Positions 3,070 through 18,661 of a stretch of 28,682 nt of DNA are shown in pieces (position 1 is the stretch's first letter; the number at the start of each line of letters is the position of its first letter). A program made the position numbers and the translations under genes. The stretch comes from a virus: the IMG/VR virus record IMGVR_UViG_3300047994_000175, positions 1-28,682 of that record; one strand, given 5' to 3'. A model generated the notes under the pieces. The model made no database searches. It had not been told where the DNA came from and worked only from the letters and a program-made list of their open reading frames with translations.

Positions 3070-5040
3070 CTACCCCCCCCCCGCGACTGGCTGGTCTGCC
3101 GGCGCCGCAGCGCCGAAGCTGAGCAACGGGTGGACCCAGGCGGCGGTATCGCCGCGGTGGGCGGCCGCGCATTCCATCGACTCGGTGAAGAGCGCCGATG
3201 TGGCGCGGGACAGGGTACTGCTGTCGAGCTTGGCCCAGTTCCGAAACACTTCCGGGTCGACGTAGGGCTCGGCGATCGCGAGGCGGCCGTTCTTGGGAAA
3301 CATCGCCATGAATTCGGGGGTCGGCTGCCAGAGGCTGCGCAAGTGCGCGTCGTGCCCGCCGGCCATGGCGGCGAGCCCGTCGTGGATCGGAATGCGGAAG
3401 CCGGGGACATTCGCAGAGCGGAGCAACGCCAGCCCGGCGCAAACGGCGCCAGCGAAAGACTTGAGGCGCCGATCGGCGGCAACGAACTCCGCGAAGGCGG
3501 CGATCGGGTCCTTCAATCCGATGAAGGGCTGCTTCCGGATGCTTTCGATCAGCGAGGTCCAGATCGCGTGCGCCGTGTTGGCATCGAGGTGCGAGACCGC
3601 CACGTCGGGAGTGCGCATATCCTCGGCCGATTGCCAGGAAGACGTCAGATCGCGCACGCCGATCGTCCTGGGCGTATCGCGGTCGGTGCCCTTGTCGTTC
3701 AACTCCATGCGGAGCTGCGCCCAGATGAAGTAATCCGCTCCGAGCGAGCCGCCTTGAGCCGCGTCGTCGACGAGCAGCGCACGCAGCATCTCGGTTCGCA
3801 GCGAGCGCACGACCTGGACGCCGTCGGCGGTGAGACCATGCTCTTCGCGCAACGCGGCGCGGGCCTGCTGGGCATCGCCGCTGTAGCGATCGGCGAAGCC
3901 GAGATCCTGACGCACCGTGGCCTTCGGCGGCTCGGACCCGTTGGCCTGTCGCTCGGCCTCGGCCTTGGCCTTGCGGCTGGCCCACCACCAGCGAACCTGC
4001 GGCTGGCCATCATCGTCGACAGCGATCGTTGCGGCGACGTCGCCGGCGGGCAGCAGGATCTTGCGCCCTTCCTTTCCGGGGTGGATCTCGATCGACGTAT
4101 CGACGCCACCGACATAGCGCGGCGGCTCGGCGAGAAAGCGCAGCTCGGGCCGGCCTGCGCGGGCGCGATAGAGATCGCGCGCGGCGCCAAGCTTCTTTTC
4201 CGATAAGCGGCGCAGCAATTCCTCGTTCGCGACCCGGACGCCGGTGAGCTCCGGCCCCTGATGGAAGAGATCCCGATCTAGAGTGCCGCCGGCCGCCAAG
4301 TAGGCTTCCTCGCCGACATAGCGGAGCAACCGCAGCGCCTCGCGATCGCCGATTTTCAGCCAGGACCGAACCGCGCTTGGCGTCCGGTTCCATTCTTGGG
4401 CCTGCTGCCAAAAGCGGAAGGCCGCGCGCTGGAGATCCTGGTCCTCGGTAGCGGCGTAGGCCTCTGCCATGTCGATGCCGATTTCGCCGCGGGCGTAAAC
4501 TTGGAAGATTTCGGGCGCGAGCGCGGCCAAGCGCAGCTGCTGCCGCACCCAGGTCAGTCGCTGGCCGCAGCGCGCCGCGATCTCCTCCGGTGTGGCGCCT
4601 TGCTCGTGCGCCTGGCGCACGGCGGCATGAACCTCATAGGAGCGCAGATCGCGGCGAAGTAGGTTCTCCGACAGCGATAGCTCGGTGATCTCGCTCTCGT
4701 TGAGGTCGCCGATGACCCGCACCAGGACTGGCCAATCGGATGGCAGGTCGCCTCGATCGACCAAGCGCCGTATCGCCCGTAGGCGCCGGCCGCCGGCGAG
4801 CACTCCCCAAGGCGCCGCGCCATCAGCGCTGAGGGGGTGAACCAACAGCGGGTTGAACAGGCCCGTCTTCAGGATCGAGGCTTCGAGGGCGTCGGTCGCC
4901 TCTGTGTCCTCCTGGTTGGTCCGGACGTTCAGCGGCGAAACGCAAAGGTCGGCGAGGGTGAATACCTTCGGGAGCTTCGGGAGCTTCGGGAGCTTCGGCT
5001 GCGCGGGCGCAGCGCGCAGCAAGGCGGCAGATCTACGCAT
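3070..5040 (-). CDS. Large ParB/Spo0J-family DNA-binding protein
   Basis: 656 residues, about twice a chromosomal ParB. After a PKL tripeptide repeat (residues 15-25) the ParB N domain is plain: SPLNVR (35-40), GLFNPLLVHPL, the GGRRLRA nucleotide motif (83-89) and ENLLRRD (125-131), then an HTH (about 150-172, TPEEIAARCGQRLTWVRQQL). The remaining 450 residues have no domain I know. Family proteins bind parS-like sites and CTP, or act as nicking nucleases. No ParA is nearby, so the role may be replication or transcription rather than partition. Start ATG 5040 is preferred because GAAAGG lies 7 bases upstream; it overlaps the DUF4326 gene by 8 bases. Ten G end the gene. Confidence 0.88.
   Translation of the reverse strand: MRRSAALLRAAPAQPKLPKLPKLPKVFTLADLCVSPLNVRTNQEDTEATDALEASILKTGLFNPLLVHPLSADGAAPWGVLAGGRRLRAIRRLVDRGDLPSDWPVLVRVIGDLNESEITELSLSENLLRRDLRSYEVHAAVRQAHEQGATPEEIAARCGQRLTWVRQQLRLAALAPEIFQVYARGEIGIDMAEAYAATEDQDLQRAAFRFWQQAQEWNRTPSAVRSWLKIGDREALRLLRYVGEEAYLAAGGTLDRDLFHQGPELTGVRVANEELLRRLSEKKLGAARDLYRARAGRPELRFLAEPPRYVGGVDTSIEIHPGKEGRKILLPAGDVAATIAVDDDGQPQVRWWWASRKAKAEAERQANGSEPPKATVRQDLGFADRYSGDAQQARAALREEHGLTADGVQVVRSLRTEMLRALLVDDAAQGGSLGADYFIWAQLRMELNDKGTDRDTPRTIGVRDLTSSWQSAEDMRTPDVAVSHLDANTAHAIWTSLIESIRKQPFIGLKDPIAAFAEFVAADRRLKSFAGAVCAGLALLRSANVPGFRIPIHDGLAAMAGGHDAHLRSLWQPTPEFMAMFPKNGRLAIAEPYVDPEVFRNWAKLDSSTLSRATSALFTESMECAAAHRGDTAAWVHPLLSFGAAAPADQPVAGGG
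4966..4998 (-). repeat. 9-bp tandem repeat coding Pro-Lys-Leu in the parB-like gene
   Basis: CTTCGGGAG (plus strand) occurs three times in perfect tandem plus a partial fourth copy. It codes the PKL units at residues 15-25 of the ParB-like protein, just before the ParB N domain. Short in-frame 9-mers like this can change copy number without a frameshift and would lengthen or shorten a flexible N-terminal linker. Confidence 0.85.
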
Positions 5041-5494
5041 GAGAGCACCTTTCCAAGATCGCGGTTGAAGCGAGGTGAGGCATGTTCGCCACGCGCAGCA
5101 GCACGTCGGCATGGCACCAAGGCGAGGTCGTCGGGCACCAGCACTGCAGGTCTTTGCCGCGTAGCTTCGGCAGCTTCTCGATGAGCTGTTTGCGCCACCG
5201 ATTGAGAGTGAGAATTTCAGCGTCGCTGAAGCGGGCAGCCCGAAGCACGCGGGGCGAGCAGTCGCCTCGAATCCATGCGGCGTACAGGATTATGCTGCGA
5301 GCATGACCAATACCCTGCCGGCCTGAGAATGGGTTCGACCACCGGGTCGGTCGGCCGACGTAAACCGCACCGGCCGGCGTCGTCCGATTACGCTTGCGGG
5401 TGCGATGCAACCGCTGCGGTAAAGCCGATTTGGTCGCCGCGAAGCGGCCTTTGATCGGCTGGGCAAAGCCCAGCCGATCCGAAGCGCCGATCAT
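5033..5494 (-). CDS. DUF4326 domain protein
   Basis: 153 residues. The C-terminal two thirds match the DUF4326 pattern: VYVGRPTRWSNPF (residues 44-56), a central helix, then KDLQCWCPTTSPWCHADVLL (115-133). The conserved CWC...CH residues (C118, C120, C127, H128) could bind a metal or form an active site. DUF4326 proteins occur in many phages and plasmids; their function is not established. The first 40 residues are basic and probably flexible. ATGA overlap with the gene upstream and 8-base overlap with parB downstream place it firmly in the operon. Confidence 0.85.
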   Translation of the reverse strand: MIGASDRLGFAQPIKGRFAATKSALPQRLHRTRKRNRTTPAGAVYVGRPTRWSNPFSGRQGIGHARSIILYAAWIRGDCSPRVLRAARFSDAEILTLNRWRKQLIEKLPKLRGKDLQCWCPTTSPWCHADVLLRVANMPHLASTAILERCSHA

Positions 5495-10879: not shown

Positions 10880-10897
10880 CGGTAAAGTTGGGTGAAC

Positions 10898-10919
10898 GCA
10901 TATACATTTTTGCATATCG
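10898..10919 (+). promoter_or_regulatory. Operator 2 (CI/Cro binding site) at the repressor promoter
   Basis: 22-bp site on the plus strand, GCATATACATTTTTGCATAT plus CG, an inverted copy of operator 1 whose centre is 45 bases away. It ends 8 bases before the repressor ATG. A weak TTGGGT at 10888-10893 and the AT-rich part of the site could serve as -35 and -10. With no good Shine-Dalgarno sequence before ATG 10928, the repressor mRNA may also be leaderless, as for lambda cI from PRM. Confidence 0.75.
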
Positions 10920-10927
10920 GTGAACAA

Positions 10928-11593
10928 ATGGAGATCGTTCCCGAAAATCTAGATACAGCGATGCGCCGGGCGGGCGTCAATCAGTCCGAGCTGGCCGATC
11001 GCGTCGGGGTGACACAGCCCTCGATCGGGAGGCTATTGAGTGGCGAAACCAAGACAAGCCGGGTTATCGTCCTGATTGCCGAAGCGCTTCAGACTACGGT
11101 TGATTTCCTTACTGGTCGATCCAGCGAAGTGGCGCCTCCACCTGCACTCATCGGCAATGACCCTGAGATCGACGCTAGCGTCGATGTAGAAATTCTGGAA
11201 ATTGACCTCGCCTACGGAATGGGCGGCGGCATCTTTGTGAACGACGGCGCGGTGCGCGAGAATACCCTTACCTTCTCACGAAGCTGGTTGCGTAACTTCT
11301 CCAACGCTCCACCGGATTACCTGTTCTTCTGCCGCGGAGCCGGCGATTCGATGACGCCGACGATCCACGACAACGATATCGTGCTGATCGACCGCAGCCA
11401 GAACACGGTACGCATGCGCGACCAGATCTGGGCGGTGACCATCGGTGATTTCGGGATGATCAAGCGTCTTCGGCCGCAGGCTGATGGAACCGTACTCATC
11501 CTGTCCGACAATCCAAATGTACCGCCGGACACGGCCAGCGACGGCGAGATGTTTATCATCGGCCGCGTCGTAGCGATCGTGCGCAAGGTCTGA
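10928..11593 (+). CDS. CI-like phage repressor (XRE HTH plus S24 peptidase fold)
   Basis: 221 residues from ATG 10928; an upstream ATG at 10892 would add residues coded by the operator and is rejected. Residues 6-60 form the HTH (RAGVNQSELADRVGVTQPSI, then GRLLSGETKTSR). After a linker, the S24/LexA-type domain starts at EIDLAYGMGGG; the catalytic Ser is in GDSM (S141) and the Lys in MIKRL (K179). These repressors hold the prophage silent and cleave themselves with RecA. The linker has no Ala-Gly or Cys-Gly bond, so the cleavage site is unclear. It is divergent from the Cro-like gene. Confidence 0.92.
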   Translation: MEIVPENLDTAMRRAGVNQSELADRVGVTQPSIGRLLSGETKTSRVIVLIAEALQTTVDFLTGRSSEVAPPPALIGNDPEIDASVDVEILEIDLAYGMGGGIFVNDGAVRENTLTFSRSWLRNFSNAPPDYLFFCRGAGDSMTPTIHDNDIVLIDRSQNTVRMRDQIWAVTIGDFGMIKRLRPQADGTVLILSDNPNVPPDTASDGEMFIIGRVVAIVRKV

Positions 11594-15038: not shown

Positions 15039-15542
15039 ATGTCGCGAGGTGGACCGCGCCCCGGCGCTGGCCGGCGCCCCAAATCGCCGGCGTTGAAAGC
15101 CCTCGCCGGCACCGACCGCGCCGATCGCGAGGTGGCGATCGCCGACACCACCGGCAGCGCGCCGATGATCGCTCCGCTTCATCTCAGCGACCTGGCGCAG
15201 CTGCACTTCCGCTCGATCGCTTCGATGCTGGAGGCGGAAAAGCGCTCCAATCCGCACCATTCCGAGCATGTCGCTCTCCTCGCACTCCGTCTCGAGCAAA
15301 TCCAGCGCTACCAGGCCGTGCTGGAGATGGAGGGTGACACCTTCACGTCGGAGTCCGCCAGGAAGGTGGGCGGCCTCACGGTCGTAACCCGCATGGTCCG
15401 CGCCCGGCCCGAAGTCGCCATGCTGTCGGAAGCCATGCGCCATGCGCAGTCGCTGATCAGCGAGCTCATGCTCAACCCGGCCGCGGCCCTCCGCATCGCC
15501 GAAGGCCACAAGCCCGCCGAGGGCGCGTTTGATGATTTCTAG
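15039..15542 (+). CDS. terS: Terminase small subunit, P27 family
   Basis: 167 residues. It starts with the typical P27 N-terminus MSRGGPRPGAGRRPKSPALK and has the helical core (LHFRSIASMLEAEKRSNP, HVALLALRLEQIQRYQAVLE, VRARPEVAMLSEAMRHAQSL). The small terminase recognises phage DNA at the packaging site and recruits the large subunit. It is followed after 3 bases by terL. The GGAGGG site is within a hairpin. Confidence 0.9.
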   Translation: MSRGGPRPGAGRRPKSPALKALAGTDRADREVAIADTTGSAPMIAPLHLSDLAQLHFRSIASMLEAEKRSNPHHSEHVALLALRLEQIQRYQAVLEMEGDTFTSESARKVGGLTVVTRMVRARPEVAMLSEAMRHAQSLISELMLNPAAALRIAEGHKPAEGAFDDF

Positions 15543-15545
15543 CCG

Positions 15546-17303
15546 GTGGAGCAGCGAGATTACGCCGCGATCGCCCGCAGCTACGCGGCCGACGTCGGCC
15601 GCGGCAAGATCCCGGCGTGCAAATCGATCCGTCTGCAGTGCACGAGGTTCCTCGACGAGCTGAAGGCGCAGCGGGGGAAAGACTTCCCCCACCGCTTTGA
15701 TCCGGAGAAGGCGGCCCGGGTCTGCAGATTCATCGAGCGGCTGCCGCACTCGAAAGGCAAGTGGGCTCGCTCGAAGGAGACCATCCGCCTCGAGCCGTGG
15801 CAGATCTGGATCCTCGCTTGCACCTTCGGGTGGCTGCGCAAGGCCGACGGGCTGCGCCGCTTCCGCGTCCTGTTCGTGGTGGTGCCGCGCAAGAACGGCA
15901 AGTCGGCGCTCTCGGCCGGCATCGGCCTCTACATGCTCTGCGCCGACGGCGAGTTCGGCGCCGAGGTCTATTCGGGGGCCACCAACGAGAAGCAGGCCTG
16001 GGAGGTTTTCCAGCCAGCCCGGTTGATGGCGAACCGGACGCCGGCGCTGCTCCGCAAGTTCGGGGTCGAGGTCAACGCCAAGTCGCTGGTGCGGGTCGGC
16101 GACAACAGCAAGTTCGAGACGATCGTCGGGGATCCGGGCGATGGGCAATCGCCCAGCTGCGCGATCCACGACGAATATCACGAGCACGCCGACGACAGCC
16201 AGGTCGACACGATGCAAACCGGCATGGGCGCCCGCGATCAGCCCCTGCAGGTCCTAATCACCACCGCCGGCGATAATCTCGCCGGCCCCTGCTACACCGC
16301 GATCCAGGACGAGCGGAAGAAGCTCGCCGGCATCGGCCACAACGGCGGGCCGCCGCTCGACGACCAGACCTTCTTCGTCGAATACACGATCGACGACGAC
16401 GACGACTGGAAGTCGGAGGCGTCGCTCCGCAAGGCCAATCCGAATTACGATATCTCGGTCTCGGCCGACTTCCTGAAGGCTCGCCAGCGCGACGCGATCG
16501 CCACGCCGCGCAAGGCCGGCGTCTTCAAGACGAAGCATCTCAACCTGTGGGTCGCGGCCAAGGCGGCCTATTTCGATATCGAAGCCTGGCGCCGATGCCG
16601 CGACCCCAATATCCCGATCCGTGCGGTGGACGCGATCTTGCTCGAGCACTTGCTCGGCCGCCGCTGCGTCGCCAGCCTCGATCTCGCCTCGAAGGTCGAT
16701 ATCGCCGCGCTGGAGCTACTGTTCTTCCCGATCGGCGCGAAACCGACGATCGACGATCCCTATATCCGGATCGGCTTCTACTTCCTTCCGTCGGAGACCG
16801 TGCTCAACGTCCCAGCCTACCAGGCCTGGGACGCTCAGGGCCTGCTCAACGTCACCGACGGCAACATCATCGACTATGACGAGATCCTGGAAGTGCTGCG
16901 CCAGGTGCGCGATTCCTTCCAGCTCGAGCAGGTCGCCTACGACCCCCATCAGGCCACCTACATGGTGACGACGATGGCCAAGGAAGGCTTCCCGGTCGTC
17001 GAGTACCGGCCGATCGTCATCAACTTCAGCGAGCCGATGAAGGAGCTCGATGCGCTCACCCGGGCGCAAACCATCGCCCACGGCGGCTGCCCGGTGATGG
17101 AGTGGGAAGTCAGCAACGTCGTCGCCCAGCTCGACGCCAAGGACAACGTCTATCCGCGCAAGCCGCGGGTCGAAGCGAAGATCGACAACCCGGTGGCGCT
17201 GATCGCGGCGCTGGGCGTGGCCATGGCCAAGGAGGAAGAACCGATGGCGACTTCCCCGTGGGATGATCCGAGCTTCAGCCTAACCGGGGATGCGGCTGCC
17301 TGA
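15546..17303 (+). CDS. terL: Terminase large subunit
   Basis: 585 residues from GTG 15546. Packaging ATPase and nuclease. Walker A-type PRKNGKS (114-120), Walker B AIHDEYH (206-212, D209 E210), coupling motif ITTAGD (239-243); RNase H-like nuclease domain begins near SLDLASKVDIAAL (D379) with a further YDPHQA. This is the HK97/P27-associated TerL type. Odd feature: residues 264-273 read GHNGGPPLDD, the same ten residues as in the portal N-terminus. The TGA overlaps the portal ATG (TGATG). Confidence 0.95.
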   Translation: MEQRDYAAIARSYAADVGRGKIPACKSIRLQCTRFLDELKAQRGKDFPHRFDPEKAARVCRFIERLPHSKGKWARSKETIRLEPWQIWILACTFGWLRKADGLRRFRVLFVVVPRKNGKSALSAGIGLYMLCADGEFGAEVYSGATNEKQAWEVFQPARLMANRTPALLRKFGVEVNAKSLVRVGDNSKFETIVGDPGDGQSPSCAIHDEYHEHADDSQVDTMQTGMGARDQPLQVLITTAGDNLAGPCYTAIQDERKKLAGIGHNGGPPLDDQTFFVEYTIDDDDDWKSEASLRKANPNYDISVSADFLKARQRDAIATPRKAGVFKTKHLNLWVAAKAAYFDIEAWRRCRDPNIPIRAVDAILLEHLLGRRCVASLDLASKVDIAALELLFFPIGAKPTIDDPYIRIGFYFLPSETVLNVPAYQAWDAQGLLNVTDGNIIDYDEILEVLRQVRDSFQLEQVAYDPHQATYMVTTMAKEGFPVVEYRPIVINFSEPMKELDALTRAQTIAHGGCPVMEWEVSNVVAQLDAKDNVYPRKPRVEAKIDNPVALIAALGVAMAKEEEPMATSPWDDPSFSLTGDAAA

Positions 17304-18661
17304 TGTCGCCCGACGATTACAAGCGGCAGTCGGCCGAGCGCCGGGCCGAGCGCCAATCGATGGGCCACAATGGCGGCCCGCCCCTCGACGATTCTGAGAC
17401 GCGCGCGAGCAACCCGTTCGAAAGCCCGTTGGTTTCGATCAGCGCCAATACCGAGGATTTTCTCGCGTTCTTCGGCCTGCTCGACAGCCGCGGCTTGATG
17501 CCGACCGTGACGATCGAGGCCGCGCTGATGGTGCCGGCGGTGCTCGACGCGGTCGGCTTCCTCTCGCGCACCCTCGCGAGCTTGCCGCTCCATGCCTACC
17601 GCACCGGCAACGCCGGCGACAAGCTCGATGGCGACCTCGCCATGTTGCTCAATGAGGCGCCCAACGCCGAGTGGAGCAGCTTCTCCTGGCGCGCCTATCA
17701 CTGGCAGCAGGTTTTCACCGGCGGCCGCGGGATGAGCTGGATCGAGCGCGACGGCATCAAGCCGGTCGGGATCTGGCCCATGGATCCGACGATGACCACG
17801 GTGCATCGCCAGGGTGGCCGCCGCTTCTATCGCTTCCTTGGTCAGGAATATCCGGCCAGCGACGTGATCGACGTGCCGTTCATGCTGCGCGTCGACCAGC
17901 TCGGCGTCTACAGCCCGATCTACATGGGGCGAAAGGCGATCGCGCTGGCGATCGCCATGAACGATTTCGCCGGCAGCTTCTTCTCGAGCGGCGGCGTCCC
18001 GCCCATGTCCCTCGAGGGCCCGATGCCGCAGGGTATCGAGTCCTTCAAGCGCGCCCAGGCTGATATCCAGCGCGCGATCGACATGGCCAAGAAGGCGGGG
18101 ATGCCGTTCTTCGGCATGCCGCCGGGCCACTCGCTGAAGCCGGTCGGCATCGATCCGTCCAAGGGCCAGATGACCGAGGCGCGGCTGTTCCAGATCCAGG
18201 AGATCGGCCGCGTCTACGGGCTTCCACCGGTCTTCCTGCAGGATCTGTCGAAAGGCACCTTCGCTAACACCGAGCAGCAGGATCTGCAGCTGGTGAAACA
18301 CAATATCGGCCAGTGGGCGAAAGCCTTCGAGGACGAGCTCAATCTCAAGCTGTTCGGCCAACGCCGCCGCGCCCGCGCGGTGAAGCATAACCTCGACGGC
18401 CTGCAACGCGGTGACTTCCTCAGCCGCATCAACGGGCTCGGCCGAGCGATCCAGACCGCCCAGATGACCCCGAACGAAGCGCGCGCGCTCGAGGAGCGGC
18501 CGCCGCTTCCCAACGGTGACAAACTCTACGTCCAGGGCGCCACCGTTCCGCTCGGAACGGTCCTCACCGGCGCCGCAGCAAAAGCTGCAGGCGAAGACGC
18601 TGCCGATGCCGGGGCCAACGACAACCAGAAGGAGCCTGCCGATGCCGGCACCGAAGACTGA
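17303..18661 (+). CDS. Portal protein, HK97 family
   Basis: 452 residues. The dodecameric portal is the DNA channel at the capsid vertex. Recognisable portal segments: AVGFLSRTLASLPLHAYR, GRGMSWIERDG, then DVIDVPFMLRVDQLGVYSP and the C-terminal PPVFLQDLSKGTFANTEQQD, LKLFGQRRRARAVKHNLDG. Length agrees with the family. An N-terminal tail of about 30 residues carries SMGHNGGPPLDD (20-30) not needed for the portal fold. The 3' end overlaps the protease gene by 20 bases. Confidence 0.94.
   Translation: MSPDDYKRQSAERRAERQSMGHNGGPPLDDSETRASNPFESPLVSISANTEDFLAFFGLLDSRGLMPTVTIEAALMVPAVLDAVGFLSRTLASLPLHAYRTGNAGDKLDGDLAMLLNEAPNAEWSSFSWRAYHWQQVFTGGRGMSWIERDGIKPVGIWPMDPTMTTVHRQGGRRFYRFLGQEYPASDVIDVPFMLRVDQLGVYSPIYMGRKAIALAIAMNDFAGSFFSSGGVPPMSLEGPMPQGIESFKRAQADIQRAIDMAKKAGMPFFGMPPGHSLKPVGIDPSKGQMTEARLFQIQEIGRVYGLPPVFLQDLSKGTFANTEQQDLQLVKHNIGQWAKAFEDELNLKLFGQRRRARAVKHNLDGLQRGDFLSRINGLGRAIQTAQMTPNEARALEERPPLPNGDKLYVQGATVPLGTVLTGAAAKAAGEDAADAGANDNQKEPADAGTED

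Follow-up and report, generated by a model that had tools for sequence, protein, structure and literature searches.

Why should two neighbouring phage genes, one for the packaging motor and one for the portal, encode the same ten residues? We addressed this question in the window, the whole stretch of 28,682 nucleotides of viral DNA analysed here. An earlier note had reported the peptide GHNGGPPLDD, hereafter the tag, in both proteins, and we confirmed it at residues 264-273 of the large terminase subunit (TerL) and at residues 21-30 of the portal protein, encoded at positions 16335-16364 and 17363-17392 of the plus strand and preceded by Ile and Met, respectively. TerL (15546-17303, plus strand) belongs to phrog_9 and matches PF03354 and PF20441, and the portal protein (17303-18661, plus strand) belongs to phrog_12 and matches PF04860. 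The small terminase subunit (15039-15542, plus strand; phrog_83) has no tag. The window also encodes a 680-residue protein with a ParB-like N-terminal half (3070-5112, minus strand; phrog_3264 and phrog_7783) and a repressor (10892-11593; phrog_4), which together suggest a temperate phage. A sphingomonad host would be plausible, because Novosphingobium and Sphingomonas genomes hold tagged TerL of the window type.

Among the 25 likely genes of the window, GHNGGPPLDD is the sole peptide of at least six residues common to two genes; in 500 composition-preserving shuffles the longest shared peptide had 8 residues, and a length of 10 was never reached. At the DNA level the two stretches of 30 bases show four differences, every one of them silent, from which the earlier note had deduced selection on the peptide. 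This deduction fails as an argument from the four differences alone, because independent encodings give as many: two of them drawn with the codon usage of the window are expected to differ at a mean of 5.7 positions, with a probability of 0.24 of four or fewer differences. Selection on the peptide is nevertheless borne out by the comparison of 57 TerLs described below. The earlier note had also placed the TerL copy in an ATPase loop; its actual position is the linker between the ATPase (84-251) and nuclease (272-563) domains defined by Pfam, and an AlphaFold2 model of TerL shows it as a coil that follows helix 248-261 and precedes strand 275-279. In the portal the copy belongs to the N-terminal tail, upstream of the Pfam portal domain (78-397). 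The view that both copies occupy parts not conserved across these folds is supported.

A pattern search showed that the GHNGGPP string recurs, as the earlier note had stated, in many phage and host proteins of Alphaproteobacteria, and that it is not a peculiarity of TerL and portal. The consensus is [ILMV]-G-H-N, followed by GG or by one of N, Q or R, and then P-P; in the GG version [LMI] and often [DE] come next. GHNGGPP occurs at approximately 1,000-1,080 sites in IMG/VR, an estimate with a wide error, extrapolated from the full scan of one codon subset (80 stretches) whose share was 9 of 121 in a sample. The scramble GGNHGPP, with equal residues and degeneracy, is found 23 times in all of IMG/VR, mostly in short or implausible frames. 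By comparison, when the 70 newly fetched GHNGGPP sites of the codon subset were screened simply by the length of the frame and the residue before the tag, 68 passed, nearly all of them with [LMI] after the tag. IGHNNPP and IGHNQPP each have at least 120 matches in IMG/VR, against 12 for the scrambled IGNHNPP. The versions can replace each other: at one site of a small family, L517 carries GHNQPP and L058 and L087 carry GHNGGPP, and both kinds of version are present in the phrog_10477 'exonuclease' family and in the phrog_21 portal family. The core comprises 6-8 residues with weak flanks and conservation ends after about 10 residues; codons are mixed among the copies. Alignments of 43 and of 35 unrelated carriers have only the selecting motif in common.

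Clustering of the 340 viral carriers with the motif masked gave 79 clusters, which together with the scramble controls places the recurrence in unrelated proteins beyond chance. Tagged TerLs belong to phrog_9, 2, 38, 979 and 3717 and tagged portals to phrog_12, 12082, 1216, 156, 21 and 2662; the other viral carriers include exonucleases, a DNA polymerase, integrases, an HNH nuclease, a major head protein, a late sigma factor and a NifU-like protein. In bacterial genomes the tag is found in a MuA-like transposase, an ATP-dependent DNA ligase and PlsY, and also in a small-protein family. The sites are exposed or disordered, as judged from the many N- and C-terminal positions and from models of two carriers. 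TerL or portal make up 91 of 119 carriers (76%) of the GG version and 4 of 221 carriers (2%) of the N and Q versions; within the codon subset the GG count is 52 of 69. The reference set for this count was drawn mostly from GG matches, and the count was repeated by PHROGs annotation of one or two representatives from each cluster: about two TerLs and one portal were found among 43 representatives with the N or Q version, whereas the 35 with GG covered many families of both proteins. The GG version is therefore used mainly on the packaging machine, be it TerL, portal or both, a concentration that counts in favour of the earlier note.

Several carriers have the tag in an appended segment. NifU/IscU-like Fe-S scaffold proteins from AT-rich IMG/VR contigs end in a short C-terminal extension with IGHNNPP, and a T4-type late sigma factor (L323, L369 and relatives) ends in SEMIGHNNPPPEFQ, past the stretch common to the untagged relatives of this sigma factor in named phages. 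The membrane acyltransferase PlsY has GHNGGPP in its C-terminal tail in some genomes. The small alphaproteobacterial host proteins, of which we found four and about 30 more, combine the tag with W..AH..AWK...EYTLEILERG and have no Pfam match. An AlphaFold2 model shows a three-helix domain, ending in EYTLEILERGR, and the tag in a low-confidence disordered tail; we accordingly rejected docking of the tag in cis. A Foldseek search with this model gave no match in the PDB, and a search for conserved gene neighbours found none that was convincing. In one order, 7 of the 101 genomes have the small protein, and some members of the family have worn tags (RHNGGPP, DNGGPP, SHNGGPP). Of 31 DNA ligases from a single bacterial order, two contain GHNNPP or GHNRPP within a hypervariable linker; the remaining 29 have no tag, and we rejected the host ligase as an ancestral carrier on this ground. 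In one ATP-dependent DNA ligase, L728, the linker holds long repetitive insertions (PLPPRSGGEGGPSASGGP repeats) beside IGHNRPP. Most contigs hold a single tag, which we dropped as a sign of an arbitrary carrier; the observation is uninformative because the frequency of tagged named phages (2 of 17) already predicts single copies.

In TerL the tag behaves as a unit that is gained and lost. Untagged TerLs of Caulobacter, Moraxella, Pseudomonas and Paraburkholderia phages are without 6-8 residues at the tag site, and three members of a second TerL subfamily have the tag at a different site. Among 72 relatives with both TerL and portal, collected through TerL patterns, the TerL tag is intact in 47; the other TerLs exhibit a stepwise decay (GQNGGPP, GHDGGPP, GHKGGPP, GHGGGPP, GTGGGPP) or unrelated loops. 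Across 57 distinct TerLs the pN/pS ratio is 0.13 in the tag, compared to 0.39 upstream and 0.24 downstream, a set that took in tag-like sequences only and so describes constraint where the tag exists. Selection on the peptide maintains the tag in TerL.

The consensus flanks, [ILMV] before and [LMI] after, were present in 36 of 54 alphaproteobacterial genome matches and in 0 of 22 from other phyla, among 80 matches listed, four of which had unclear titles and in which the frames from other phyla were often short. In named genomes the consensus-flanked tag is thus essentially alphaproteobacterial, in samples that include many incomplete assemblies. AT-rich phage contigs are among the carriers of the N version. 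Two of 17 named phages of alphaproteobacterial hosts are tagged, namely Rhizobium phage 16-3 in p091 (VKGHNQPPPSPF) and Paracoccus phage vB_PmaS-R3 in TerL (MGHNGGPPLEDD). The tag is an optional feature.

The strings GHNGGPP, GHNNPP, GHNQPP, IGHNGG and GHNxPP did not occur in any open-access full text that we searched, and a PDB search with a profile of 26 tag sequences returned just chance HNGPPP tails (E>3). The nearest general class is that of short linear motifs, including those with which viruses mimic host motifs (PMC10132805). Like the tag, such motifs consist of few residues, sit in tails, linkers and loops of unrelated proteins of virus and host, and are gained and lost. The viral motifs described there are eukaryotic and read by known domains, whereas the tag belongs to phages and bacteria and its reading domain is putative. 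By profile, the TerL (phrog_9, PF03354/PF20441) and portal (phrog_12, PF04860) of the window are ordinary HK97-type members, to which the tag is added as an insertion or tail that most of the named relatives examined do not have. In bacteria, peptides of the sliding-clamp-binding and SSB-tail type are likewise short, appended to unrelated DNA-handling proteins, and bind one hub; the likeness is one of analogy only, as the sequence of the tag is unrelated to them and its carriers include the NifU-like protein and PlsY, which do not handle DNA. Rickettsia palindromic elements are in-frame coding insertions that place the same peptide in unrelated genes at tolerant sites. The tag differs from them in being far shorter, with scrambled codons, DNA that is not conserved and a peptide under purifying selection.

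Based on these comparisons, we propose with about even confidence that the tag is a short linear motif and a probable docking site for one protein found across Alphaproteobacteria. Its recurrence, its position, its presence or absence as a unit, its constraint and its near-restriction to Alphaproteobacteria all point to docking, with one widespread partner reading the motif. Sitting on the tails, linkers and loops of unrelated phage proteins, and occasionally of host proteins, the tag would bring its carrier to this partner or, alternatively, might compete with the partner's own ligand. The partner is likely encoded by the host, since unrelated phages and host proteins bear the same tag. As the GG version is concentrated on TerL and portal, contact with the partner may often be important during packaging or when DNA enters and leaves, but the other carriers show that the motif is not in itself a device for packaging. 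More tentatively, it is possible that a so far undescribed hub protein of Alphaproteobacteria reads GHN-x-PP / GHNGGPP as the ligand borne by host proteins, and that phages have repeatedly grafted this ligand onto their own proteins to recruit or capture the hub; the grafts would then fall most often on the packaging motor or the portal, across many phage lineages. Against docking, we know of no partner for the tag, which is optional among named phages, decays in some TerL lineages and is missing from most of the ligases. Its carriers also have no obvious common place or time of action, which would be unusual for a single partner.

The narrower proposal of the earlier note, that the tag docks TerL and portal onto each other, was assessed in the 72 relatives: 21 are tagged in both proteins, 26 solely in TerL and 5 solely in the portal, and 20 have no tag in either protein. 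A packaging-specific docking, between TerL and portal or with a third phage protein of packaging such as the small terminase or the HNH nuclease, draws on the many unrelated TerL and portal families that carry GG and on the doubly tagged relatives, whose number is above chance (odds ratio 3.2, Fisher p=0.043, without correction for ancestry). However, most tagged relatives (31, against 21 with two tags) have the tag in just one of the two proteins, and the 26 portal tags are mostly near the C-terminus, with the N-terminal site found in the window and in one further relative, L554. Together with the tags in integrase, NifU-like protein, late sigma factor, DNA ligase, PlsY and host chromosomal proteins, this disfavours direct docking between TerL and portal, and we regard a packaging-specific signal in either form as quite unlikely. 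The note's other suggestion, a putative common partner, agrees well with the recurrence of the peptide on dozens of unrelated proteins.

The main rival to docking is a substrate tag, through which a host or phage enzyme (a protease or its adaptor, or a modifier of His, Asn or Pro) would trim, destroy or modify the carrier. The carriers are of every functional class, as a processing or modification signal would give, the tag is often near a protein end or in a linker, and its His, Asn-Gly and Pro are open to chemical attack or modification; yet cleavage at the internal copies in the TerL linker would cut or inactivate an essential motor, and no such enzyme is known, so that we consider this explanation rather unlikely. 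A dispersed micro-element, that is, short coding DNA inserted in frame at tolerant sites and merely tolerated, in the manner of the Rickettsia elements, would account for the discrete presence and absence of the tag in TerL and in the hypervariable ligase linker, which in L728 also contains repetitive insertions, and for the decay seen in some TerLs. This reading, already weakened, appears very improbable to us: the peptide is constrained, its conservation stops after about ten residues and codons are scrambled among copies, whose DNA is no more alike within a genome (identity of 0.862 for own pairs) than when pairs are shuffled between genomes (0.853, p=0.22). The same comparison gives no support to the idea that, within a genome, one copy has been converted by the other. 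Finally, the Gly/Pro-rich, low-complexity tails of GC-rich genomes might yield the string by chance, and some carriers are indeed Pro-rich around the tag, for example the phrog_1216 and phrog_12082 portals. The scrambles of equal composition, which are rarer than the tag by factors of about 45 and more than 10 and are mostly in short or implausible frames, refute coincidence as the sole explanation; His and Asn are moreover fixed and AT-rich phage contigs are tagged as well, so that this account retains hardly any probability.

A docking motif would explain why the same residues are found within or at the end of several unrelated terminases and portals. Within the open-access texts and solved structures searched, the tag suggests a docking signal new to the literature, and public sequence suffices for checking the motif, its versions and the controls. 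The same peptide on dozens of unrelated phage proteins would point to a common target in rhizobia, roseobacters and sphingomonads, members of a class of ecological and agricultural importance, and the tag peptide itself is a ready bait for finding this target.
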